From the NCBI GenBank assembly GCA_019456225.1, contig VRUI01000046.1:1-39528 (forward strand): 39,528 bases of DNA. Direction: 5' to 3'. Below are positions 610-19,514 of the stretch, in pieces (position 1 is the stretch's first letter; each line of letters begins with the position of its first letter). A program made the translations under genes and the position numbers. The stretch is from Planctomycetota bacterium (GTDB lineage: Bacteria; Planctomycetota; Phycisphaerae; Sedimentisphaerales; Anaerohalosphaeraceae). The notes under the pieces are model-generated. The model was given only the letters and a program-made list of their open reading frames with translations, ran no database searches and was not told where the DNA came from.

Positions 610-1887
610 CTATGAAGCCTTGGTCTTGAGAGCACAGATCGGACCGGCGACGGTGGTAGTACCTTCGCCGAATACGGTTATCGCGATCCTCTCGGTTCCC
701 ATGATGGCGATCTGTCGCTGGGTGAACAGCGCTTCAGTCGAAGACTCGATCGTCATTTTTCGGCGATCACCAAGCCATACACCAAGCTTGAGGTTACCGA
801 AGACACAACATATCTGGCTAACAGCAGTAACCTTAGGCATGACATGTATAAATACGACCTCGTAACCCCGGAAATATTTCGTCCTGGAGTTGCTGTTCGT
901 CAGGATTTCAGCTGCGGCAGTACCGCCTGCGGCGAGAGCTAATTTTTCCATTATCTCGAAGTAGAAGGCACGCGTGCAGTACCACTTCAGATTGATGCCG
1001 TCATCAGCGTATTCGGGAACTCTGCCCAGAAGCTTGCTGAAATCGCCCATTGTCAGAGAAGCCCACGTCGAGCCTGTACCTTCTACTACGCCTGCAAGAC
1101 TGGCTGTAGCATTCAGTTTGCCGATGATGCCGACATAGTTGAAGTAGGTACTCGTTCCATCGCCGTTGAAACCGATCGTATCTTCTTTGAGGGCAAAGGC
1201 CATCGCGATCAATTCACCGACGAGATTACCGATAGAGATCGCCGCATCCTCATCGAGGTTCTTATCGATAGCGCAATACGTAACCCATTCCTTGGCACCC
1301 AGACCGACGGGCTTGAAGCCTGCATCGGACTTAGTCGCGGCAACACCTGCCGACGGACAGTAAACCTCGAGGAGGTCGGTAAGCATCGGCGCAGAAGCAC
1401 TGTCGCTGCTCATCGGATAGACGTTAACGTTTTGTCTGAATTTGCCATAACTATCGATGAGCATGATCAGAGTATCGATGAACTGGGTCGGAGCGAAGAT
1501 GCCGCCTTCGGTGTTGTCCTGCTCGTTGAAATCGCGTTCGAGCTTGTAGCCTTTTGCGACCAGCATCTCGGTGGCTTTTTCACTTCCGGCTACTGCCGAC
1601 AATACGTAAAGACCGAAGTCCCTGGCCAGGGATGCCGAGCCCCACACACCGTTGTAGAGCTTTTCGGGTATCTGCGAAGGTTCGGAGTTCAGGAAGCCAA
1701 AGTTCTTGATCTCTTTTGTGAGAGTCTCGATATTGCTCTTGAGCGTCTCGATATCTTTGAACTGATCGGTGAGCTGACCCTTGACGATATCGCTTAAGCT
1801 CTTGATAAAGTCTTCATTGCCCAGAATGCCTTTCTGGTAATCGCCGAACATCTTTTCGAGTAACGCTTTTAATTCTTTTTCATCCAT
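610..1887 (-). CDS. Phage major capsid protein, HK97 fold
   Basis: A 425-residue protein with the layout of HK97-type capsid proteins. Residues 1 to about 65 are charged and predicted coiled coil (a scaffolding delta-domain), ending near the expected prohead protease cleavage zone. The shell domain follows, opening with an EGGIFAPTQF segment and the typical run on to a proline/serine-rich strand and helix (FRQNVNVYPMSS). Late residues show the glycine-rich LGVWLGDRR strand and the C-terminal IAITVFG segment. It lies directly downstream of the prohead protease, the standard order. It assembles the icosahedral head. Mu itself uses a different capsid operon, so this is an HK97-type head in a Mu-like phage. 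The family call is confident; the cleavage point is not determined. Confidence 0.9.
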   Translation of the reverse strand: MDEKELKALLEKMFGDYQKGILGNEDFIKSLSDIVKGQLTDQFKDIETLKSNIETLTKEIKNFGFLNSEPSQIPEKLYNGVWGSASLARDFGLYVLSAVAGSEKATEMLVAKGYKLERDFNEQDNTEGGIFAPTQFIDTLIMLIDSYGKFRQNVNVYPMSSDSASAPMLTDLLEVYCPSAGVAATKSDAGFKPVGLGAKEWVTYCAIDKNLDEDAAISIGNLVGELIAMAFALKEDTIGFNGDGTSTYFNYVGIIGKLNATASLAGVVEGTGSTWASLTMGDFSKLLGRVPEYADDGINLKWYCTRAFYFEIMEKLALAAGGTAAAEILTNSNSRTKYFRGYEVVFIHVMPKVTAVSQICCVFGNLKLGVWLGDRRKMTIESSTEALFTQRQIAIMGTERIAITVFGEGTTTVAGPICALKTKAS

Positions 1888-1900
1888 GATAAAAAATCCT

Positions 1901-2668
1901 TTATAATTGAATATTTAAAACTGATTTAAGTGCTTCTACAATTTGCTCGGGCTTTAGTTTGTCACCAGCGGAGCGATCTGAGTCATGAGAGCCGCCGAGC
2001 TTATCCTCATGCAAATCGTCCGAATCGGGGACCAGTAAATCCTTGATCTCTTCGAGGCCGTCGAGAACGTCATCGAAGTGTGATTTTATGCTTTCGGTGA
2101 TCACTTCCTTTATCTGATCATTGTTCGCCTTAATCGCTTCAGCTATGGCGTCTTTGGAATCTTCGTCATCGAAGTAACCTTTTGCGCGGGCGAGGGCATG
2201 GGGGTTCGAAGGGACAGGGACGGCTGAGACTTCGAGCAGCTCTACCTCGGTGTAAGTTCTAAGGGCACATCTACCCTTGTCGTCGCGAGTATCTTCCCAT
2301 TTAACAGGAATGAAACCGACACTGAAGGCCCGCATGTGACCGTCGCGGTAGAGGATCCAGTATTCTTCGCCGAGGGCTGTCTTGGCAAACTTCATTGTAA
2401 ATACAAGTCCTTCGCTTGTGATCTTAACCGTTTCGGGTATGGCCGAACCGATGACAGGCGACGAACCTGTTTGCAGACGATGCTGATGACAGGCAAGGAT
2501 CACAGAGTTCGCGAGAAACGATTTGATGTTCTTTTTGAACGCGCTTGGCTTAATGATATCGCCGTCTCGATCCTTGTCGGCTGTCGAAGCCAAAACATCG
2601 ATCGTACGCTGCTCGGTATTGATTGATTTTACGGTTGCGAAAATAAACTGAGCTTTTTCTTTAGCCAT
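1901..2668 (-). CDS. HK97-family prohead protease (S78)
   Basis: A 255-residue serine protease that trims the capsid scaffold domain during head maturation. The N-terminal two thirds match the caudoviral prohead protease fold, with an early strand set (TIDVLASTADKDRDGD), a histidine cluster LACHQH around residues 58-63, and the catalytic-serine motif AFSVGF at S116. A downstream ELLEVSAVPVPSNP segment is also typical of the family. The C-terminal 80 residues are acidic and charged, perhaps a scaffold-like tail. I chose ATG at 2668 over the in-frame GTG at 2677 because AAAGGTGA lies 5 nt before it. It overlaps the end of the portal gene by 8 nt, indicating translational coupling. Confidence 0.87.
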   Translation of the reverse strand: MAKEKAQFIFATVKSINTEQRTIDVLASTADKDRDGDIIKPSAFKKNIKSFLANSVILACHQHRLQTGSSPVIGSAIPETVKITSEGLVFTMKFAKTALGEEYWILYRDGHMRAFSVGFIPVKWEDTRDDKGRCALRTYTEVELLEVSAVPVPSNPHALARAKGYFDDEDSKDAIAEAIKANNDQIKEVITESIKSHFDDVLDGLEEIKDLLVPDSDDLHEDKLGGSHDSDRSAGDKLKPEQIVEALKSVLNIQL

Positions 2669-5078
2669 CGGATTCACCTTTTGCGTTTAAGTGAGCTTGT
2701 ATCATGTCATCGTATGAATAGAATTTGATATTTGCGTAGTATGCCAGGCCGAGCGACTTGCCGGCTGCCGCCATCATGATATGAAGGCATCTACAGTTCA
2801 TTATATTTTTAGCCGAGGCCGAAGGATCGCCGGGATACATGAGCATCTCTCCGCCGACGTCAAAGTGTTCGGTGATCGGGATGCCTTTGTCGTATTTAGC
2901 TTCAGCGGACTTGTGGGCATCTCTGACGTGATCGTCGCGGGAGGTTATCCAGGACTTAAGCTCGCCGCCGACTGCTTTCATACCTTCCTGGCGACCGGCA
3001 GATACAGCGCCTGAGGTGTGAGTCCTGGCGATCTTTAAATGCCTGGCCCGGTTGCTGCCGAGCTGGGTTTTGATGCGATCTGTCAACTGATTTAGATCTT
3101 CGCCGTTTTCCAGTCCTTCGGTGAGCTGGTCGGCGATCATTTTTCGGGTCGTCTTGTTGGTCTTTGTGATCTTCTGGCTGGATATCCTTAAGGCCCGCCT
3201 GACTGCCGGTCTGAGCTTGACCTGTTCGACAACGGCGTCAAGCTGATCGCCGGTGACTCCGCCTTCGGTAAGGGTCTGCCGGATGCCGAGTTCGCTGGCT
3301 TTGCCGAAGAATACCTGGTTGATGACCTTAAGCTTTTTGTTTTCGGCATGAAGGTCGAATACGACACGGGCGATGATCTCGTCTTTATCCTTGGTCACCG
3401 ACTTGGCTTCTTTTAAAGCCTTCTTGAGGGCTGCAATCAGGAGCCGCTGCTGACGCTGGAAGTATGACCACAAAGCGCCTTTGTACTCTCTTTCGATACC
3501 GGCCCAGGAGATCACCCAGTTTTTCCAGAACCGCAGCTTTGCACGTTCGTCGTCTTTGGTCTGAGGCTGAGTCAGCAGCTTAACAATCTTTTTAATGTCC
3601 GACTTACCATCTTCATCTTTGGATTCTGGAGGTGCGAATAGCTTGCGAAGTTTCGATGCATATTTGTCAGCGATCGACTTGCTGTCTTCGTCGCCGCCTT
3701 CGTCATCGTCGGGATCGTCATCTTCGCCTTCAGGAGCGTCCGGGCCGGTGATGCCTTCCGGACCGGCTTCAAGGATATAGCTTGCAGGTACAAGTCCCAT
3801 CGACACCCAGTGCTCCTTGCCCCAGGGCTGATCGTCATCAAATGGAAGATCGTAAACCTCGATCAGATTGTTGAGCGTGACACCGGCCTCCTTGTAGTTT
3901 AGAACCTTCTCGGTCTTTTCGTTTTGCATCTCCTGGATGACCGGGTGGGCATCGGTATTGAACCAGAAGAATAACCTGCTTTGACGCTGGACGGCCTTTA
4001 GGTGAGCGGCCCGATACGACTGACGCCTGACAAGCGGGTAGTTGCGCAAGAGAACCGTCTTGCAATCTTTAAGCTCGACGGCGCGTGTGCCCGTCTGGAA
4101 CATCCCGGATATCATATTCGTAAGATGACCGGCAATGACACGCGCCAGAGGAGTGACCGAGTTGCAAACAAAGTCTCGCTGGGCAGGGCCGCCGGAGTAC
4201 TGGGCCTCGGTTTCGAGACCGACGACGGCGGGCGGGACATTGAAGGTTGTGCAGATACGTTTATCGTTCATGTCCTTAAGCTTGGTCATCTCGATATCGG
4301 CAAGCTTTGAAGCGGTCTGTTTTATGTCCATGCCGCCGGCAATTAAAGCAGTACGTTTGGCCTTACCGGCCCCGGCATGGCGGGTATCGAACTGGTCGAG
4401 GAGAAATCGTGCCTGGTCGGGGTCGACCTTGCCGGGGGCGGTAAGAACGGTGCCGAGACTTGCGCCGTTTGCCAGGGCCGATTCGTTAAGCAGCGAGGCC
4501 TGGTAGCTTTGACTTATAGCAAGCCGTGCAGCCGTAACCGGACCGAGACCGTGGAACCTGCTGTAAGGATTGAAATTCTTGATCTGGTAAACTTCACATT
4601 CTTTGAAAGTTGCACGCTCGCCGTTTACGCCCCTGAATTCCCAGCCGACAAGTGTGCCGTCGGCGCGGCGGTTGTGAGTGATCGCGTGCATCTGCATGCC
4701 GGATACGACCATCATCTCTGTCGGCTGGAGGCCGTTCATCTCGGTAAAGACTATAAAGACGTCTCGGGTAAGCGCGTAATGACCGACAACCTGGTTGATC
4801 AGATCTTCGTACTTCATCTTCGGGTTATTGAACAGGAAGTCATACGCCGGGCCGGATTCGACGATCTTGTTGTCTATCGTCGACAGGATCAGCGGGAGGC
4901 CGCTTATCGCATCGACAAGCTTATTGACGCAGGCATAGACAAGTTCGCTTTGAGCGTACGGCCTGGTCGGACGTGAAGAGCTGCTGCCGGTGCCTTGCGC
5001 ACCAGAGAAGTAACGCCGCAGCTCGGTAAAGCTTTTGATCGTCTGGTAAAAAGATTTTGCTTTGCTTATTAAATTCAT
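2661..5078 (-). CDS. Portal protein fused to MuF-type head morphogenesis domain
   Basis: At 805 residues this is nearly twice the usual portal length. Residues 1 to about 430 are an HK97-type portal: early YACVNKLVDAISGLPL, then YQIKNFNPYSRFHGLGP, the clip/stem region, and FNVPPAVVGL. A very acidic linker follows (PDDDEGGDEDS, about 455-470). The C-terminal third carries a head-morphogenesis domain of the Mu gpF/SPP1 gp7 kind, with a helical ARTHTSGAVSAGRQEG segment, the W..R.D..VRDAH core, a FDVGGEMLMYPGDP motif, and NCRC followed by hydrophobics. Portals form the dodecameric DNA gate at one head vertex; MuF proteins sit nearby and are often ejected. Fusing them fixes a 1:1 ratio. The domain calls are solid; the function of the fusion is inference. 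Confidence 0.88.
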   Translation of the reverse strand: MNLISKAKSFYQTIKSFTELRRYFSGAQGTGSSSSRPTRPYAQSELVYACVNKLVDAISGLPLILSTIDNKIVESGPAYDFLFNNPKMKYEDLINQVVGHYALTRDVFIVFTEMNGLQPTEMMVVSGMQMHAITHNRRADGTLVGWEFRGVNGERATFKECEVYQIKNFNPYSRFHGLGPVTAARLAISQSYQASLLNESALANGASLGTVLTAPGKVDPDQARFLLDQFDTRHAGAGKAKRTALIAGGMDIKQTASKLADIEMTKLKDMNDKRICTTFNVPPAVVGLETEAQYSGGPAQRDFVCNSVTPLARVIAGHLTNMISGMFQTGTRAVELKDCKTVLLRNYPLVRRQSYRAAHLKAVQRQSRLFFWFNTDAHPVIQEMQNEKTEKVLNYKEAGVTLNNLIEVYDLPFDDDQPWGKEHWVSMGLVPASYILEAGPEGITGPDAPEGEDDDPDDDEGGDEDSKSIADKYASKLRKLFAPPESKDEDGKSDIKKIVKLLTQPQTKDDERAKLRFWKNWVISWAGIEREYKGALWSYFQRQQRLLIAALKKALKEAKSVTKDKDEIIARVVFDLHAENKKLKVINQVFFGKASELGIRQTLTEGGVTGDQLDAVVEQVKLRPAVRRALRISSQKITKTNKTTRKMIADQLTEGLENGEDLNQLTDRIKTQLGSNRARHLKIARTHTSGAVSAGRQEGMKAVGGELKSWITSRDDHVRDAHKSAEAKYDKGIPITEHFDVGGEMLMYPGDPSASAKNIMNCRCLHIMMAAAGKSLGLAYYANIKFYSYDDMIQAHLNAKGESDG

Positions 5079-5087
5079 GTTCGTCCT

Positions 5088-6365
5088 TTATCCTACAAAC
5101 ACCTGGGGGATAGCGCCTTCTTCGGTTGCCATATACGAAAGTGCCATTGACCAGAACCTGTCGGCATGGCCTAACTCTGTACGAGCCGCATCAAACCGAA
5201 TGTTACCGGCTGCGGTCGTGGTTTTCTTAACAGCATGGAGGTCATTTCTTAATTTGCGACATCTCTGTATCCTGGCCCTGCGGTCCTGGAATACCCTGAG
5301 CGTCCGGGTTGCCAGGTCATTCTTTGAGGGATTTGTGAAAGCGACGCCTTCGACACGGGTTGGATCGAACTCGTCGATCGTGTCTTCTGCCAGTTGCATA
5401 CCGATACCGGATTCATCAATACAAGTACGGGAAATATTAAACTTTCTTATCAAGCTGGAAAGCAGCTGCTGCTGGTGACGGAATTTGACCTTGTTAAGAG
5501 TGATCATGCCGCGATTCCAGTAGATATCGCCGACCTGCTCGATAAGGTTAATGACTGTGAGGTCTCTTTTTCTGCCGACATCGACACCGCAATAGATCGG
5601 GCCCTTACGCTCGAAATCGAAATTGTTGATATCGAAATCTGCGTACTTGATCTCCGGCGGGACCGTATCGTCCTGGCAGGATTCGATAAGTTCGTAGTTA
5701 AGCAGCACTGAAGCGATATCGATAAACAGACAAAGGAATTCCTGGTCCCATGCTTCGGGATCGTCGAGGCCTTCCTTGAGCTCTTCGATGTTGTGTTCGA
5801 CTCCGTCGGCGACCGCCTGGTAGATGTCGACAAAATGTTTACTGTAACTGTTGTCGCCTGTAAAGAGCGAGTGGAACCGGTTACCCAGGCCCTGGGGTGT
5901 CGAGACGATCCTGAGCTTGAAGCCTCTGGATATCGTCGGGAACAGGGCCTTCCAGATCGCTCTTGAGTCTTTGTGGAAAGCGAACTCGTCGAGAATAATA
6001 TTTGCCGAAAAGCCGCGAGCGGTATCGGGGTTTGCAGGCAGGCCCATGATCCTGGCACCGTTTGGCAGGGTTATCGTCAGGAGTGTGTATTGAGTATCGC
6101 TAAAGAAATCTTCCTCGATACTCGATGCGGCGATCGCCATCGCCTCACAGTGCATCTTGACCTTGCTCATCAATTCCTTGCTCTGCCTGGCACCGGCGCT
6201 AAGCAATACCCAGTCCTGACCCGTTTCGGCTGCATCCAGAACGGCTTCCAGCGAAACGCCAAAGCTCTTGCCGATCTGCCTGCACATAAGCCCGATCTTG
6301 AACCTTGAGTGGTCGTTGAGCCATCGCTGCTGATAACCGTATAGTGGTACTGCCGGTGCTACCAT
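5088..6365 (-). CDS. Large terminase subunit, Mu gp28-like
   Basis: A 425-residue DNA-packaging motor protein. The ATPase half shows the terminase adenine/Walker A segment CRQIGKS near residues 28-34 and a Walker B ANIILDEFAF near residue 125, followed by a coupling-motif-like IVSTPQG. The C-terminal half carries the RNase H-like nuclease, opening at GVDVGRKRDLTVI with the first catalytic aspartate. It pumps DNA into the portal encoded just downstream and cuts it when the head is full. Its start overlaps the gp27-like stop as TAATG, so the two terminase genes are translationally coupled. It is closest in style to Mu-like phage gp28 proteins. Confidence 0.88.
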   Translation of the reverse strand: MVAPAVPLYGYQQRWLNDHSRFKIGLMCRQIGKSFGVSLEAVLDAAETGQDWVLLSAGARQSKELMSKVKMHCEAMAIAASSIEEDFFSDTQYTLLTITLPNGARIMGLPANPDTARGFSANIILDEFAFHKDSRAIWKALFPTISRGFKLRIVSTPQGLGNRFHSLFTGDNSYSKHFVDIYQAVADGVEHNIEELKEGLDDPEAWDQEFLCLFIDIASVLLNYELIESCQDDTVPPEIKYADFDINNFDFERKGPIYCGVDVGRKRDLTVINLIEQVGDIYWNRGMITLNKVKFRHQQQLLSSLIRKFNISRTCIDESGIGMQLAEDTIDEFDPTRVEGVAFTNPSKNDLATRTLRVFQDRRARIQRCRKLRNDLHAVKKTTTAAGNIRFDAARTELGHADRFWSMALSYMATEEGAIPQVFVG

Positions 6366-6925
6366 TATAAAATCCCGTAAATCTGCTCCCTGATAGCCTT
6401 GAGGGTTTCAGGGTCAATTTGTTTTTTGCCGGCGATCTCAGTGATCTTCTTGACGGCGGCCTTTGCTTTCTTTTCGATCTGGCTTTTTACGTATTGTTCG
6501 CTCTTGATGGCGATCGCGGTGCAGTCCTTGACGGTGCAGGCGAGTTCCCTTAGCTGCTTTGGAGTGAGACTATCGTCGTTGGCTGCCGTCTCTATGACGA
6601 TGGCGGTGAGCATCTCGGCGACGGCCTTCTGGGTCTGGGAGGCGTTTTCATCGCTGAGGCCGGACATGACCTCGCGGGCAAGGACCCCGGCTTCCTTCAT
6701 CCGGGCCAGGACCCGAATACTTCGACCGTACCGCCCTACCGCCGACCTGGAAACCTTGTGGCCGGCCTGGCGGCAGTAGTCGACGAGGTCCTCGTATTTG
6801 GGCTTGCCTTCCTGCTCACCGGAAAAATCAAAGGGATACTCGTTGTCGATGATCATGCGGCGGAGAGTTTCCTGGAGATCCTTCGGCAGGCGGTCTATAC
6901 TGGAATGTGCGCGGCGTTTGCTCAT
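6365..6925 (-). CDS. Small terminase, Mu gp27-like (DUF3486)
   Basis: A 186-residue protein directly upstream of and coupled to the large terminase. The N-terminal 70 residues contain the DUF3486 signature: SSIDRLPKDLQETLRRMI, a YEDLVDYCRQAG helix, and the SRSAVGRYGRSI recognition helix. This is a helix-turn-helix typical of small terminases that bind the packaging start site. The rest is helical and alanine/lysine-rich, suiting oligomerisation and contact with the large subunit. In Mu-like phages gp27 and gp28 are always paired in this order, which supports both calls. Confidence 0.85.
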   Translation of the reverse strand: MSKRRAHSSIDRLPKDLQETLRRMIIDNEYPFDFSGEQEGKPKYEDLVDYCRQAGHKVSRSAVGRYGRSIRVLARMKEAGVLAREVMSGLSDENASQTQKAVAEMLTAIVIETAANDDSLTPKQLRELACTVKDCTAIAIKSEQYVKSQIEKKAKAAVKKITEIAGKKQIDPETLKAIREQIYGIL

Positions 6926-7233
6926 TATATCTCCAAAGCCGGATCGTCTATAGTGTCCTGGGCGATCTCGAGACCTTCGGCGGTGAGCTTGACAACCTTT
7001 TGCTCAATATCGCTCATGCCGCCGATGGCATCGTCGACGAACTGGATATATCGCTTGGCCGCGAGGTAGGCGATGTCTTTTTTAAATAAACTAAAATCGT
7101 ACATCGCATCGACCGTGTAAACGGTCAGGAAAAGAGACTTCATGCGGAGGCCTGACGGGTAAACGATCTCCAGGCTTCTCATTATTCGCTGCCGGGCCTC
7201 TATGATAATTAACGCTTTTGCTGATTTAGCCAT
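6925..7233 (-). CDS. Winged-helix phage protein, VpaChn25_0724-like
   Basis: A 102-residue protein with a winged-helix pattern: helix (RQRIMRSLEIVYP), helix (VDAMYDFSLFKKDIAYLAAKRYIQFV), then a two-strand wing and a C-terminal LTAEGLEIAQDTIDDPALEI. The ending (L T x x G x x I/V A x ... D P) is the hallmark of a small protein beside gp27 in many Mu-like phages, often mislabelled as ArsR regulators. Its stop overlaps the gp27-like start (TAATG). It may help in packaging or late regulation; its exact role is not established. Confidence 0.7.
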   Translation of the reverse strand: MAKSAKALIIIEARQRIMRSLEIVYPSGLRMKSLFLTVYTVDAMYDFSLFKKDIAYLAAKRYIQFVDDAIGGMSDIEQKVVKLTAEGLEIAQDTIDDPALEI

Positions 7234-7564
7234 TACTCTTGATCTCCTTTTTCATTTCCTTGACGATTTGGCTGGCGATATTGCCGCATATCTGGGGCAT
7301 CTTATCAAAGACCGCCATCGAGCCTTTGATCTCGCTGAGAGCTTCGAGCATCTTGATCTGCCGCTTTTCGGTAGTCGTGTAACTGCGGATGTAATCGACC
7401 TTGTCGACGAAGTCCTGGCGACATCTGTCTTTGCGCTTTGCCGCTTCCTTGAGATCACTTTCGACAGCGGCTATCCTTTTATCCATTGCTCTGAGATTAA
7501 AAAGAATCATTCCGCTGATCAGAGTCGCTGCCGCTCCTAATGCAATTGAGAGGATCTGGATCAT
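7226..7564 (-). CDS. Single-span membrane coiled-coil protein, DUF2730/Mu gp25-like
   Basis: A 112-residue protein with one hydrophobic N-terminal helix (residues 3-22, LSIALGAAATLISGMIL) followed by a long charged helix predicted to form a coiled coil. This is the architecture of the small Mu gp25/DUF2730 proteins encoded just upstream of the terminase genes in Mu-like phages. It overlaps both neighbours by a few bases. A part in lysis or membrane-linked assembly is plausible, but assignment is by layout rather than by a sequence signature. Confidence 0.6.
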   Translation of the reverse strand: MIQILSIALGAAATLISGMILFNLRAMDKRIAAVESDLKEAAKRKDRCRQDFVDKVDYIRSYTTTEKRQIKMLEALSEIKGSMAVFDKMPQICGNIASQIVKEMKKEIKSNG

Positions 7565-8199
7565 ACTCGCATCTCCTTGAAGGGTACTTTTGGCGCCCTG
7601 GGAATGGCGCTTTTGACTTCGGTGACCAGCATTATTGTCGAAGGCGACTGGAGGTCGTCATTTGCATCCTTGAGGGACTGGAGGATCTCGGCTGCCCTGC
7701 CGGTGTCGTCGGAGTCGGCTTTGAGCTTAAGCTCGTCGCGGAAATTCTGCTGAGCTTTGACGATCTCGCGGAGGGCCTTTGATTTCTTTTGAGCGACGGC
7801 GATGGCTCTTGCGACCTTAAGGCCGCCTGCTCCGCCGAAAACACCGGCGGCGGCGAGGCCGAGACTTAGAGCCAGGTCGAGGGTATTCCAGGGATCCGGG
7901 CGCTCGGCTGCATCGACCTGGGCCTGGGGGATCACCCGGGCGGGATCGGCGAGCGGCTGAGTGGGCAGGCCGAAATATGTCTGGGTGGCTTTTGCCGATT
8001 CGTGGGCGATGGTTGCGACCGGCGATTGTGGAGTTGTGCCGGTTAGCCAGATATCGGCGGTTGCTTCGATTCCCATCCGGGCGGTTTGCTTCTGGGCCTC
8101 GGTGGGCGGTTTGCGGAGCGCTTCGCATCCGTTAAAGGACATGAAAACTACGGTTAATGCTACAATAAACGTCGTGTAAACAAGGGTACTTCGCTTCAT
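7561..8199 (-). CDS. Predicted phage lipoprotein
   Basis: A 212-residue protein with an N-terminal signal: KRS, a hydrophobic stretch (VYTTFIVALTVVFMS), then FNGC as a lipobox-like cleavage site at C25. The mature part holds a proline-rich segment, a hydrophobic glycine/alanine segment (LALSLGLAAAGVFGGAGG) that may be a second membrane contact, and a long charged C-terminal helix. I chose ATG at 8199 because GGAGG lies 8 nt upstream; the in-frame ATG at 8262 would start inside the terminator. It is the first gene of the leftward late operon. In Mu-like phages this slot often holds lysis (spanin-like) genes, so a lysis role is possible but unproven. Confidence 0.6.
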   Translation of the reverse strand: MKRSTLVYTTFIVALTVVFMSFNGCEALRKPPTEAQKQTARMGIEATADIWLTGTTPQSPVATIAHESAKATQTYFGLPTQPLADPARVIPQAQVDAAERPDPWNTLDLALSLGLAAAGVFGGAGGLKVARAIAVAQKKSKALREIVKAQQNFRDELKLKADSDDTGRAAEILQSLKDANDDLQSPSTIMLVTEVKSAIPRAPKVPFKEMRV

Positions 8200-8261: not shown

Positions 8262-8368
8262 TAAAAAAAGCCCGCCGCTAAATCACTAAACGATTCAGCC
8301 TGCGGGCTGTAAAAGCTCACAAGTACACGGAGCTGCAACTCCGTTCGATGACACTGCAATGTCATCTT
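8262..8368 (-). ncRNA. Candidate small structured RNA or attenuator leader
   Basis: A leftward promoter predicts a transcript starting near 8368. It would begin at once with hairpin 1 (GATGACA-TTGCAG-TGTCATC, 8366-8347), then after 2 nt hairpin 2 (ACGGAG-TTGCAG-CTCCGT, 8344-8327), an 18-nt single-stranded linker, and a strong intrinsic terminator (8308-8269) with a run of seven T. The two hairpins have different stems but the same hexaloop, which can pair with itself through UGCA (a possible kissing interaction). The result is a compact RNA of about 106 nt upstream of the late genes. It could be a stand-alone small RNA or a put-like antitermination/attenuator leader for the head operon. The elements are directly visible; the function is inference. 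Confidence 0.5.
8263..8308 (-). terminator. Intrinsic terminator upstream of late operon
   Basis: On the minus strand AGCCCGC pairs with GCGGGCT, and inside that GCTGAATC pairs with GATTTAGC (one G-U), closing a 7-nt loop. The stem runs straight into seven T. The plus strand has no T-run after the stem, so it acts leftward. It lies between the leftward promoter and the first late gene, so late transcription must read through it or start elsewhere. Confidence 0.8.
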
Positions 8369-8374
8369 TTGTTA

Positions 8375-8403
8375 TAAATACTACTTCGGCGATGGGTTGT
8401 CAA
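8375..8403 (-). promoter_or_regulatory. Sigma-70-type leftward promoter
   Basis: TTGACA (8403-8398) and TATTTA (8380-8375) separated by 17 nt, read leftward. The predicted start near 8368 falls at the foot of the first leader hairpin. It is the best promoter in the gap between the cargo genes and the head operon. Confidence 0.6.
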
Positions 8404-8466: not shown

Positions 8467-8952
8467 TTATCCAGTCGAAGTTTTTTTAACCACGGATTTC
8501 ACGGATTTTCGCGGATTATTTTTTTTCAGTTGGTAATTGATCTCTTTTAGTTCTTTGCAAATAACACTTAACAGGCAGACGATAAATAGTCCAAACGCTA
8601 TACAAATTGCTCCTACTACCGTAATCGTCGAGTTAACCGATTCGATTGCGGTTAGTTGTTTTTCGAGCATAGTGTCGAAGTAGATGTGAAAGATTCCAGA
8701 GTGATCAGCAAGAAAGATAGCAAAGATCACGGCCAGAATTATACCAACGACTACTGTCGGCCAGGTCACAAAATCGACAGGCTCATCCGTTTTTTTTGAG
8801 GGGGCCGGTTCCGGGGGGCGAGGGGCGGGGTGAACGTACACCATCTTTTCAGCCGTAAACGGTTCGTGGCAGGCGGCACATTTGACGACTTTACCGGCGT
8901 ATTCGTCCGGTACTTTGTGTTCTTTCTGGCAATGCGGGCATTTGATTTTCAT
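8467..8952 (-). CDS. Zinc-ribbon, two-helix membrane protein
   Basis: A 161-residue protein starting with an MJ0042-like zinc ribbon: CPHC at 4-7 and CAAC at 25-28, with the VPDEYAGKVVKC spacing usual in that family. A proline-rich linker (PAPRPPEPAPS) follows, then two hydrophobic helices (about 67-86 and 107-130) and a basic C-terminus. The last residues (KSVKSVVKK) are encoded by a dispersed DNA repeat rather than by conserved coding sequence. AGGAGA lies just upstream of the ATG. It is the last gene of the four-gene cargo cluster and may act at the membrane with the channel and TIR proteins. No specific function is recognised. Confidence 0.7.
   Translation of the reverse strand: MKIKCPHCQKEHKVPDEYAGKVVKCAACHEPFTAEKMVYVHPAPRPPEPAPSKKTDEPVDFVTWPTVVVGIILAVIFAIFLADHSGIFHIYFDTMLEKQLTAIESVNSTITVVGAICIAFGLFIVCLLSVICKELKEINYQLKKNNPRKSVKSVVKKTSTG
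8487..8517. repeat. Dispersed repeat (ccacggatttcacggatt), copy 1
   Basis: TTAACCACGGATTT-CACGGATTTTC-GCGGATT, built from 9-11-nt CGGATTT units. It lies inside the 3' end of the zinc-ribbon gene and encodes its C-terminal NPRKSVKSVVK. Related copies occur at 10096-10126, partly at 13268-13283, and inverted at 34751-34779. Confidence 0.7.
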
Positions 8953-9170: not shown

Positions 9171-10064
9171 TTATGAGATTGTTTCTTCTGTTTCATCATC
9201 CAAGTTATGCGTAGGGCTTTCTTTAAAGGTAACGGAATAGTTAATAAGTTCGATATAATTGATAATTTGCCTTCTAAGCTTTGGCGGTAGTTCTTTGTCT
9301 GTATATAGAGTTACTGAACGGTTGTAGCCCGCCACGTCATACCCAGTAATCGATATACCGTTCTTCAGTATCTTTGGTCTGAAATATTCCACTATCTTTT
9401 CCAAAATAAAAGCCGCCTCGCGTTCATCAACCTCCTGTGGGCCAAAGATATTGCCCTCCATTATGTCGATGATCCTTCTTCTATTCGGGTTTCCATCCAG
9501 TCTGCGAAGGATCGTTAGCATCTCTTCTATCATTTCCCGTTGGTCGCGTACGGGTTTTCTTGGTCCTTTTGCTTTGTCTGCTTTTTTTATTATTTCTTTG
9601 ACTTTTTTGTCGAACTTTAGCCAGAAGGATTCAAATAGTGTGTTAATCGTTGCTTCTTTGAGGGGGCTGTCTTCGATCTTGTTGTTTATATCAGTAAGAA
9701 GTCCTCTCATGTATTTCTGAGTGAATTCGTGTCCCTGGAGCATGCCTAGAGGAAATTCCAGGTCCGTTGGTTTGAGGCCTCCGAAAGTGATCGGGATGAC
9801 GTTGGACTTGTCGATGCTCTTTGCCAAGGCTCCTGCTTCGTAGTGGATCCAGGTTGATGTGATGTTGTCAGAAGTCATGCAAAGGATGCCGAAATTTGTG
9901 TCGTCTAATTTTGAGGTTATTTGTCCCTGCCAGTACTTGCCCTTTTCAATATCGTCACTACTGAAAAAAGGATCCACTGCCTGGATGATGGTTGGCAGCC
10001 AGTCTCTTAATGCTGCTGCGATCTGCTTGCTTGTTTCGCCTGACCAGCTTATGAAAATCTTCAT
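9171..10064 (-). CDS. TIR-domain protein, putative NADase effector
   Basis: A 297-residue protein. Residues 1 to about 130 form a TIR domain: first strand KIFISWSG, the helix SKQIAAALRDWL, a DDIEKGKYW box, the strand FGILCMTSDN, and W72 with YEAGAL placing a glutamate at position 76. That is where bacterial TIR NADases carry their catalytic glutamate. Residues about 145-210 are helical and basic, and 215-297 form an alpha/beta tail I do not recognise. TIR proteins in defence systems usually cleave NAD+ or make cyclic ADP-ribose signals after sensing phage. CAGGAG precedes the ATG. It lies between a channel gene and a small membrane protein gene in one leftward operon. The TIR domain call is firm; NADase activity and defence are inferred. 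Confidence 0.85.
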   Translation of the reverse strand: MKIFISWSGETSKQIAAALRDWLPTIIQAVDPFFSSDDIEKGKYWQGQITSKLDDTNFGILCMTSDNITSTWIHYEAGALAKSIDKSNVIPITFGGLKPTDLEFPLGMLQGHEFTQKYMRGLLTDINNKIEDSPLKEATINTLFESFWLKFDKKVKEIIKKADKAKGPRKPVRDQREMIEEMLTILRRLDGNPNRRRIIDIMEGNIFGPQEVDEREAAFILEKIVEYFRPKILKNGISITGYDVAGYNRSVTLYTDKELPPKLRRQIINYIELINYSVTFKESPTHNLDDETEETIS

Positions 10065-10090
10065 TTTTGACTCCTGATAAAGTTATTTGG

Positions 10091-11224
10091 TTATTTAACC
10101 ACGGATTTTGCTGATTTCGCGGATTTTTTCTTTTTGATCTCTTTTAATTTTGCCTTTGTCTCATCATCCATTTCAGTAAATTTGCCCATCGGCCCGGTGC
10201 TATTGAACAATACGCCAAGGCGAGTTACAAGCAGGCCTAATATTACGTATCCTAAGAGCACCTGAACAGTCAGCATAAAATGACCGGCAATACTACGAAA
10301 AGCAGCGTAAGAGCCGTCTGCCCTATTAGATACATTGGCAAACATGTCGCCAAAACCGAGCGTTGTCATCGTTACAATTGAAAAGTAAACCGAACGAGCA
10401 GGCAATATAAAACCTTGAACCGCATTCGGCTCACCATCAAGAAAAAAAAGATTTTTAATTATGCCTGGATCCTCCCGGATGTCCAAAGCATACAAATCAA
10501 AGGCGCCCCACGCATAATAAATGAAGGCAAATATGAACGCTAAAATCAAGAAAATCTTTATGATCTGCTTAGTCGACGAACCATAATTATTAGCCCACCA
10601 GAATCCCTTAACGAGCCATCTTATCCATGGCGGCTGCCTATCAGACCAATCGTTCCAGTTCTTCCGCCTGATGTTATACTCAAGCAGTTGCCTGGTCCCG
10701 CTGTCGATCCGCATATCGCCAAGACCAACTATCGAAAAGTTTGTATCCTTATCAATCTCGCACTCAACGAGCAAAGTACTACCATCAACAATTGCCTCTT
10801 GGAAATTTGCACCCTGTAGATTTGTATAAGACAAATTTGCTTTTCTAAGATCCACCCCGAAGAGATCCACTCCGCTGAGATTCGCCTTGAAGATATCCGC
10901 CCTGCTAAGATCTACCCCGCTGAGACACGCTCCGAGGAGATTCGCGAAGATGAGACTCGCATCTATGAGATCCGCCGTGCTGAGATCCGCCCCGCTGAGA
11001 TCCGCCCCGCTGAGATTCGCCTTGCCGAAGTTCGCCCCGCTGAGATCCGAATTGCTGAGATTCACCCCGCTGAGATTCACCCCGCTGAGATTCACCTTTC
11101 TGAGATCCGCCCCTATGAGCTTCGCCCTGCTGAGATCCGGGGTAATATCCGGGTTTTCCTTTCGCCATTTATTCCAGGCTTTAACGCCCTGCCTTAATTT
11201 TTCCACGTGTTTGGGGTTTGCCAT
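10091..11224 (-). CDS. Pentapeptide-repeat protein fused to potassium-channel pore
   Basis: A 377-residue fusion. Residues about 30-145 are roughly 23 pentapeptide repeats (A/N-D/N-L-S-G type), which fold as a right-handed square beta-helix. A short linker follows, then a two-helix ion-channel module: first membrane helix about 220-240, a pore helix, the selectivity filter TTLGFGD at 287-293, and a second helix about 315-337. The C-terminal tail is lysine-rich; its last residues (KSAKSAKSVVK) come from a dispersed DNA repeat. The ATG at 11224 was chosen over 11293 because AGGACA precedes it and the upstream residues look non-coding. The filter predicts K+ selectivity. In the TIR operon it may be a membrane-depolarising effector; that is inference. 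Confidence 0.85.
   Translation of the reverse strand: MANPKHVEKLRQGVKAWNKWRKENPDITPDLSRAKLIGADLRKVNLSGVNLSGVNLSNSDLSGANFGKANLSGADLSGADLSTADLIDASLIFANLLGACLSGVDLSRADIFKANLSGVDLFGVDLRKANLSYTNLQGANFQEAIVDGSTLLVECEIDKDTNFSIVGLGDMRIDSGTRQLLEYNIRRKNWNDWSDRQPPWIRWLVKGFWWANNYGSSTKQIIKIFLILAFIFAFIYYAWGAFDLYALDIREDPGIIKNLFFLDGEPNAVQGFILPARSVYFSIVTMTTLGFGDMFANVSNRADGSYAAFRSIAGHFMLTVQVLLGYVILGLLVTRLGVLFNSTGPMGKFTEMDDETKAKLKEIKKKKSAKSAKSVVK
10096..10126. repeat. Dispersed repeat (ccacggattt), copy 2
   Basis: TTAACCACGGATTTTGCTGATTTCGCGGATTTT, closely related to the copy at 8487-8517 and in the same orientation. It encodes the C-terminus of the channel protein. Confidence 0.65.
10840..11135. repeat. Tandem 15-bp repeats coding for pentapeptides
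   Basis: Imperfect 15-bp units of the form GCTGAGATCCGCCCC, repeated about 18 times on the plus strand; this is the antisense of the pentapeptide codons. The DNA-level similarity is high, so the array can expand or shrink by slippage. Confidence 0.8.
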
Positions 11225-11318
11225 GGTTCTGTCCTGCCTCAAAACGCTGTTTTTGGTGTTCCAGTGCCATACGGATGGCATCGGCTGCGGCAATTTACTT
11301 GTCGAATTTACACCAAAT

Positions 11319-13820: not shown

Positions 13821-14297
13821 ATGGTAGCTTTGAATGAGGTAAAAGACACAGACGGGAAAGTTGCCGGAGCGATCTGCCCCGGGTGCGATGAGCATTATAT
13901 GTACCCGGCGGTAGTGGAAAAAGAGCCGGACAGGTACGGCAGGCAGCTTCGGGAGGTTTACGGCTGGTGCCTTAAATGCAATGTCGGGTATGAAGCGGTG
14001 CAGTTTAAGAACGAGGGGAAATGGCTTACCTGCAGATGCCGCAAATACACCTACACCGAAACCGAAACAGAAGGATCAAAGCCGGTACCCGTCGGGGGGT
14101 GGGTACAGGGATATTCTTTGCCGGATCCGGCGCCGGTGGTCGTCGGGCCCGGGGGCGACTTTGTAAAGCAGATCGACATCGATGCGGAGGTCGGCAAAAC
14201 TCTGAGGGCTGCGGTAACTATCCTTAATAAGGCTGTAAAGAACCTTGTTGAGTTAATGAACATCGCAAAAAAAAGGGACGGGGCCAAACATGATTAA
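13821..14297 (+). CDS. Phage zinc-binding protein
   Basis: A 158-residue protein. The first 80 residues carry cysteine pairs CPGC (19-22), CLKC (50-53) and CRC (71-73), suggesting one or two zinc sites. The C-terminal part is a helical segment (AAVTILNKAVKNLVELMNIAKK). AAAGGAG precedes its ATG. It lies between the CP76-like regulator and the transposase. No named family is recognised; a nucleic-acid-binding role is likely but unproven. Confidence 0.65.
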   Translation: MVALNEVKDTDGKVAGAICPGCDEHYMYPAVVEKEPDRYGRQLREVYGWCLKCNVGYEAVQFKNEGKWLTCRCRKYTYTETETEGSKPVPVGGWVQGYSLPDPAPVVVGPGGDFVKQIDIDAEVGKTLRAAVTILNKAVKNLVELMNIAKKRDGAKHD

Positions 14298-19139: not shown

Positions 19140-19514
19140 ATGTACGAAACTTTAACAACTCAAGAGGCCGCCTGCTGCCTGAGGATCCTCCAGGAACAAA
19201 GCGAGCCGATCGTCGCTGTCAAGCTGGCCGAAAGGCTTGGCCTGGCCGGCAGCCATGAAACAAAGCGGCGCCGGATCCGGGCGATCATAAAACTGCTCCG
19301 GGATAAGGGCTCTATGATCGTGGCGGTCGGGATGAGCGGATACTTCCTGACCGAGGACACCGGCGTCTGGAAGGATTACCAGGAGCAAAGGCAGATCACG
19401 GCTAAGCGGATCCTCGGCGAAACACACAGACGCAAAAAGATGATCGCTGACAGCAAAGGCCAGGGAATGCTGTTTAAGGCACCAAGAGTTAGCTACGGGG
19501 ATCGGTTAAGATGA
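19140..19514 (+). CDS. Winged-helix phage protein
   Basis: A 124-residue basic protein with a winged-helix pattern: AACCLRILQEQ, VAVKLAERLGL, KRRRIRAIIKLLRDKGSMIVAVGMSGYFLTED. The helix and wing residues fit DNA binding. Its stop overlaps the next start by ATGA. A regulatory or replication role is likely. Confidence 0.65.
   Translation: MYETLTTQEAACCLRILQEQSEPIVAVKLAERLGLAGSHETKRRRIRAIIKLLRDKGSMIVAVGMSGYFLTEDTGVWKDYQEQRQITAKRILGETHRRKKMIADSKGQGMLFKAPRVSYGDRLR

Follow-up and report, generated by a model that had tools for sequence, protein, structure and literature searches.

A putative terminator/antiterminator switch at the head of the late operon in Mu-like prophages of Planctomycetota

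A promoter, twin hairpins and a terminator ahead of the late genes

Why would a prophage place a strong terminator directly after the promoter of its late genes? The question is raised by a 39,528-nucleotide contig of a Planctomycetota bacterium (hereafter the window), where a leftward promoter, twin perfect hairpins and a strong terminator follow one another on the minus strand from 8403 to 8263, as the first-pass annotation of the sequence had observed. The contig holds a Mu-like prophage, with MuA- and MuB-like transposition genes, GemA and Gam running rightward. The leftward genes 3' of the element constitute a packaging and capsid set, so the element heads the late operon, and its proposed placement before late genes is upheld. 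The first gene of the operon (7561..8199, minus strand; a better start than 8262, with GGAGG at 8211-8207) encodes a 212-aa protein, lipoprotein-like by eye, which has no Pfam or PHROG match and for which a search of viral contigs found nothing. The remainder (610..7564, minus strand) is annotated as encoding 112-aa and 102-aa proteins followed by the packaging and head proteins: a Mu Gp27-type small terminase, the large terminase, a portal with a Mu F-like domain, a head protease and the capsid. At the DNA level the window shows no similarity to known phages at E ≤ 1; a DNA search of 59 relatives recovered the window itself and otherwise short matches, of which the top one (L006, E 3.2e-6) was judged unrelated by eye.

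The gene that immediately precedes the late promoter, transcribed in the same direction, encodes a zinc-ribbon-like protein just below the Pfam cut-off (8467-8952, minus strand), which has hydrophobic stretches by eye and matches in 7/13 phages. The stretch separating the early region from the late operon also contains genes for a TIR-domain protein and for a partly hydrophobic, pentapeptide-repeat-like protein, the latter recognized by eye (9171-11293, minus strand). Neither matched in the fetched stretches of 13 relatives, and the pair is therefore possible defence cargo.

As read from the sequence, the late promoter is of the σ70 type, TTGACA-17-TATTTA (8375..8403, minus strand), with its -35 TTGACA at 8403-8398, its -10 TATTTA at 8380-8375 after a 17-nt spacer, and a GCCGAA within that spacer at 8390-8385. 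A promoter and terminator scan did not list it, TATTTA having 3 of 6 matches against a cut-off of 4, and scored the first hairpin as a weak rightward terminator-like site. That hairpin, 1a (GATGACA-TTGCAG-TGTCATC, 8366-8347, minus strand; from sequence and fold), shares its UUGCAG loop with hairpin 1b (ACGGAG-TTGCAG-CTCCGT, 8344-8327, minus strand; from sequence and model alignment). Hairpin 1b, whose UGCA loop is closed by U.G, is the copy that corresponds in the alignment to hairpin 1 as conserved across the family described below; hairpin 1a is an extra copy, and one relative (L071) likewise has two upstream hairpins. The strong intrinsic terminator is present as claimed, with the correction that sequence and predicted fold give a stem in two parts, an outer GC portion (AGCCCGC / GCGGGCU) and an inner one of 9 bp (8269..8308, minus strand). 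It is followed by a tract of seven U (8263..8269, minus strand) at the predicted end of a terminated RNA of ~105 nt, in agreement with the short transcript anatomy originally read from the sequence.

The 112-nt transcript has a predicted folding energy of -45.6 kcal/mol, compared with -28.3 ± 3.5 in 200 dinucleotide shuffles (z -4.9), none of which reached as low a value (0/200). Twin hairpins, defined as perfect, with stems of at least 6 pairs and identical 6-nt loops within 60 nt of each other, arose in 0/20,000 mononucleotide shuffles of the region, and a total of 1.24 Mb of fetched loci, which overlap in part, contained four that scored, all of them re-fetched copies of the window site. 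The window has one more perfect twin, with identical CGCCAG loops, in its right-hand part (36866/36918). Scanning the window against Rfam 15 gave no match above the gathering score, and the sole permissive match overlapping the element reached 12.2 bits against a cut-off of 49.5.

Distribution of the element and covariation of its stems

A covariance model (R1) seeded with nine relatives, the window left out, finds the window element with 39 bits and an E value of 4.4e-6. It is the single R1 match at E ≤ 1 in the window's own 4.45-Mb genome, where 150 of 666 first-look candidates were scored. Relatives identified through Gp27 alignment comprise metagenome-assembled genomes (MAGs) titled Planctomycetota, Phycisphaerales and Sedimentisphaerales and one titled Krumholzibacteriia, plus 33 IMG/VR contigs, nine of which hold less than 1.5 kb upstream of Gp27 and so fall outside the element count; relatives of this Mu-like prophage are found mostly in Planctomycetota MAGs. 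Among the 24 viral contigs with at least 1.6 kb upstream of Gp27, 22 carry an R1 match at E ≤ 0.06, eight of these containing seed sequences, and the other two gave E 0.25 (L084; 0.16 on second scoring) and a partial match at E 0.73 (L106). The location is conserved: the element precedes Gp27 by 1.3-4.0 kb wherever the distance was computed (25 of 26 members), and the gene directly 3' of the element varies while the element itself stays. The set of 26 members analyzed throughout includes L084 and leaves out L106, L115 (matched by a further model, R2, at E 0.003) and L099, whose element is identical to that of L098; the duplicates L065/L086 (of L071) and L092 (of L013) were kept out of the alignment.

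More distant Gp27-bearing prophages (L110, L112, L114 and L117) gave no match to the element. One of them, L110, is a second Gp27-bearing Mu-like locus in the window's own genome (contig C100, 8270-8821), without an element-model match, and two relatives found through the large terminase (L002 and L003) are distant Mu-like phages that likewise lack one. In two further pairs, L047/L068 and L048/L067, a promoter and a terminator are seen by eye at the same place, with only L047/L068 scoring, at 11.3 bits. In 397 sampled class-level genomes, five matches at E ≤ 0.01 comprised three prophage copies (the window, G083 and G101) and two sites (L129 and L130) that look like ordinary terminators by eye, lie in sequence showing no late-operon head and were taken as chance. 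Model R2, applied to 392 sampled phylum-level genomes, returned the window and four terminator-like hairpins (L149-L152), also chance by eye and in surroundings that show no late-operon head. Both scans used stricter filters with 10 candidates scored per genome, at which weak members can be missed. Because they yielded prophage copies and terminator-like matches, the element appears to be a phage element rather than a general host RNA.

Hairpin 1 and the terminator covary. Across 27 aligned matches (26 distinct), double-sided changes occur in 17 of the 22 pairs of the two stems, with 65 double-change cells versus 19.6 in shuffled alignments (0/500 reach the observed value) and at most 31 when partner columns are slid by 1-3. 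The covariation score is 0.442 versus 0.227 shuffled (0/500), in an alignment that was fitted to the covariance model; an unfitted 9-row alignment gives weaker results, with 8/500 for the covariation score, 35/500 for double-change pairs and 156/500 for further pair types. Some of the relatedness among members persists through permutation and shuffling. Judged from these alignments, RNA-level selection on hairpin 1 and the terminator, which the first-pass annotation had proposed, is supported. It had based that proposal on covarying stems with a fixed loop, and here the stems stand and the loop does not: UUGCAG occurs in the window alone among the 26 members, the others having UUCCUG, UCUGUAG, CUUGUUG and more, and the suggested kissing of the two loops through UGCA is rejected on the same count. 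The first hairpin of the minimum free energy (MFE) fold is closed by U.G or C-G in 20/26 members while its loop letters vary. The search of related prophages that had been put forward as a check thus recovers the structure upstream of late genes but not a shared loop, and the loss of hairpins or loop in relatives, which was to count against the idea, applies to the loop sequence and not to the structure of hairpin 1.

Pairing between the linker and the terminator

Side-by-side reading of the members reveals that the linker, which joins hairpin 1 to the terminator, is complementary to the terminator's 5' strand. In the predicted folds, the two form an antiterminator hairpin that is mutually exclusive with the terminator and had been overlooked in the earlier reading. 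The window version, CUUGUG-A-GCU [UUUAC] AGC-C-CGCAGG (8299..8323, minus strand; fold prediction), contains one A x C mismatch (A8317 x C8305) and shares the 5' strand of the terminator. The linker and the terminator strand vary together from member to member: each linker pairs with its own terminator 5' strand at -9.12 kcal/mol versus -6.81 ± 0.39 with swapped strands, a difference reached in 0/20,000 permutations and again in 0/20,000 when the comparison is confined to 22 sequences thinned to <65% identity. The terminator itself, as a positive control, likewise gives 0/20,000, and the negative controls give 5,414/20,000 (hairpin 1 against the terminator 5' strand) and 17,129/20,000 (linker against downstream sequence). 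A fourth segment 3' of the U-tract, which GCGCCCGCC runs noted by eye had suggested as a partner of the terminator 3' strand, did not pass the swap control (7,389/20,000) and was rejected.

When transcripts are cut after the terminator 5' strand, the MFE fold contains an antiterminator of at least 5 pairs in 21/26 members. At this threshold the proportions are 81% for own sequences, 63% for chimeras with swapped terminator strands and 31% for shuffled linkers; a requirement of 7 or more pairs separates them better (18/26 own, 33.5% swapped, 9.7% shuffled linkers). The antiterminator is absent from the MFE of four members (L113, L082, L091 and L080) and has only 4 pairs in L096. By eye, 14/26 MFEs consist of two short helices flanking one 1x1 mismatch of a non-G base with C, a recurrence which suggests a specific site for a protein or ligand. 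Single-column changes in the shared strand run in the same direction. Six members have U in place of C at terminator column 81. In five of these the antiterminator pairs that U, in each case with A, and in four of the five the terminator partner is still G, which makes a weaker U.G pair. At column 84, each of the six members with U has an antiterminator A, and 5/6 retain G as the terminator partner. The antiterminator partners were taken from the MFE and are thus standard pairs by construction; U-A in the antiterminator together with U.G in the terminator is what selection on the antiterminator predicts. Folded at increasing length, the window RNA adopts the antiterminator as its MFE between 74 and 80 nt; different folds take its place at 86-92 nt, and the terminator prevails from 104 nt onward. 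When forced in the full transcript, the antiterminator reaches -34.9 versus -45.6 kcal/mol for the terminator, making it 10.7 kcal/mol weaker.

Models for control of the late operon

In light of this anatomy, we propose that the element is a cis-acting transcription attenuator, a termination/antitermination switch of the prophage late operon that is off by default, and we put the probability of this reading at about 0.6. RNA polymerase would start at the constitutive-looking promoter and make hairpin 1, then the mismatched antiterminator hairpin. By default the antiterminator would be brief, with the longer terminator stem capturing its 3' strand, so that transcription stops, an RNA of ~105 nt is released and the late genes are silent in the lysogen. 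Upon induction a factor, for which a phage early protein is the likeliest candidate, would stabilize hairpin 1 and the antiterminator or otherwise block terminator folding, or would alternatively be loaded onto polymerase at the promoter; with the terminator blocked, polymerase would read through into the packaging and head genes. Transcription from the promoter, the default-off behaviour, the factor and its timing are what we infer from these features.

A factor loaded from the DNA recalls the late control of phage lambda, which runs through the PR' promoter, the 6S RNA, the tR' terminator and antitermination by Q. The element resembles that system in its late promoter, its short terminated RNA, its prospective read-through into late genes and its in-promoter motif. 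A phage DNA-binding protein might accordingly load onto polymerase at the GCCGATA-type motif within the promoter, with the terminator then ignored and the leader a 6S-RNA-like by-product; as a full account of the locus we regard this as unlikely, though it leads the alternatives. The lambda PR'/tR' order of promoter, short RNA, terminator and late operon favours it, and an intrinsic terminator does follow shortly after the late promoter in the sequence. TTGAC, counted by eye, occurs within 110 nt before the element in 19/26 members, and CCGAW, a putative site for such a factor between -35 and -10, within 90 nt before it in 20/26 versus 23.7% of control windows. The longer pattern TTGAC...GCCGATA, outside of which the window's own GCCGAAG falls, was rejected as a general host promoter feature, with 18 occurrences in the window's own genome versus 18 for the reversed control. 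According to PMC9371919, in which Q elements are also described, AlpA binds an element between -10 and -35 and overcomes an intrinsic terminator further downstream. Such loading would leave the joint variation of linker and terminator 5' strand and the covariation of hairpin 1 unexplained, and a Pfam scan of 10 early-region proteins of the window named no Q or AlpA family. Apart from this lack of a recognized Q homologue, the element differs from the lambda leader in its setting, Mu-like phages of Planctomycetota, in its covarying hairpin 1 and in an antiterminator that shares a terminator strand. Because CCGAW marks 20/26 promoter regions and the longer pattern is not enriched in the window's own genome, a factor loaded from the DNA in the manner of Q or AlpA is nonetheless to be taken seriously, be it as a rival of the RNA switch or as a partner to it. 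In another relative (L111, ~4884 bases into the reverse complement), a promoter-like sequence, TTGACTCCAGCCGATATAA, precedes an oppositely oriented open frame, which suggests that use of the GCCGATA motif may extend beyond a single phage promoter.

The early region offers candidates for such a factor. Mu carries early regulators after Gam, and in the window the gene after Gam (19140-19514, plus strand) encodes a 124-aa protein with a winged-helix structure (best Foldseek match, E 1.8e-3, a transcription regulator), which is present in 13/13 relatives checked and is a further point for DNA loading. Its C-terminal GQGxLF, invariant in 14/14 aligned sequences, resembles a sliding-clamp binding motif. 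Just upstream of MuA, a 158-aa zinc-ribbon-like protein (13821-14297, plus strand) has relatives in 12/13 phages and four cysteines invariant in 13/13 aligned sequences, with no Pfam family over cut-off, no PHROG and a best solved-fold match (E 0.75) that is not meaningful. Mor and C are the middle and late activators of Mu, a phage of the same group in which the same kind of operon is controlled; here, by contrast, a Mor-family match was found in 0/14 genomes or records, several of them fragments, in a search whose control rang in 1/14 known genomes. An ANTAR-domain search gave 0/14 genomes or records, while its control rang in 0/14 known genomes.

The remaining explanations fare less well. 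The element has the full anatomy of a small-RNA gene, with a constitutive promoter and an end at the terminator, and a stand-alone trans-acting RNA of ~105 nt would presumably be made continuously in lysogens. We find this improbable, as its loops and linkers vary and no conserved unpaired seed is evident, the element keeps its place upstream of the Gp27 late genes, and the class-level matches were prophage copies and ordinary-looking terminators. More improbable still is an action like that of the HK022 put RNA, in which hairpins bind polymerase directly and render it terminator-resistant without a phage protein. According to PMC9378689, put is ~70 nt long, consists of two stem-loops, binds the zinc-binding domain of polymerase and needs no dedicated protein for its action at terminators far away. 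The tandem hairpin pair right after a phage promoter and ahead of a terminator is a real likeness, and the first-pass annotation had suggested a put-like antiterminator leading into the late genes. Read-through control survives from that suggestion as the likeliest role; the put-like mode is disfavoured, since pairing of the linker with the terminator's own 5' strand points to competition between terminator and antiterminator. Here the terminator comes immediately next, with one strand common to it and the second hairpin, and hairpin sequence and loop vary, unlike a fixed polymerase-binding RNA. Least probable, and by our estimate very much so, is a mere insulating terminator between the cargo genes directly upstream and the late operon, for which the promoter between cargo and terminator, the covarying hairpin 1 and the linker would be needless.

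For the switch itself, the closest layouts besides lambda are those of protein-held antiterminators. ANTAR dual hairpins, e.g. the targets of EutV, have a second hairpin that overlaps the 5' part of an intrinsic terminator, as treated in PMC3369931, and the element likewise has two small tandem hairpins of which the second overlaps the terminator in this way. It differs in the internal 1x1 mismatch of its second hairpin, seen in 14/26 members, and in heading a phage late operon, and it lacks their six-base loops with A1 and G4, the window's UUGCAG having U1 and C4 and the other 25 members varying in loop length and letters. RAT hairpins of the BglG/SacY type, also covered in PMC3369931, are held by a protein and partly overlap a terminator; the antiterminator here shares the overlap and may be held likewise, and is distinguished by an extra, covarying hairpin 1 and by the lack of a sugar-operon context. 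We thus liken the element in layout to lambda PR'-6S-tR' and to the ANTAR twin hairpins without claiming membership in either family, and consider it probably a new RNA family of a known device type, the terminator/antiterminator switch, in a new setting. A more far-reaching version, which we regard as doubtful, is a phage riboregulator of a new class: in a clade of transposable phages, an RNA switch would govern the late operon in place of a Mor/C-type activator, with a conserved hairpin and a deliberately mismatched antiterminator read by a phage early protein or a host signal, and the GCCGATA-type promoter motif would load the same or a partner factor, e.g. the winged-helix protein with the GQGxLF tail. 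If so, that clamp-like tail would tie late transcription to phage replication.

Judged by title and abstract, none of the open-access papers listed could be recognized as describing RNA attenuation of a Mu-like late operon, and none of those listed for planctomycete and Phycisphaerae prophages as dealing with how their genes are controlled. The element would be a new compact RNA family of ~100 nt, without a match in Rfam 15. Mu-like phages would then have, alongside activator proteins, a further means of keeping late genes silent, and the element gives a late-gene switch open to testing in phages of Planctomycetota.
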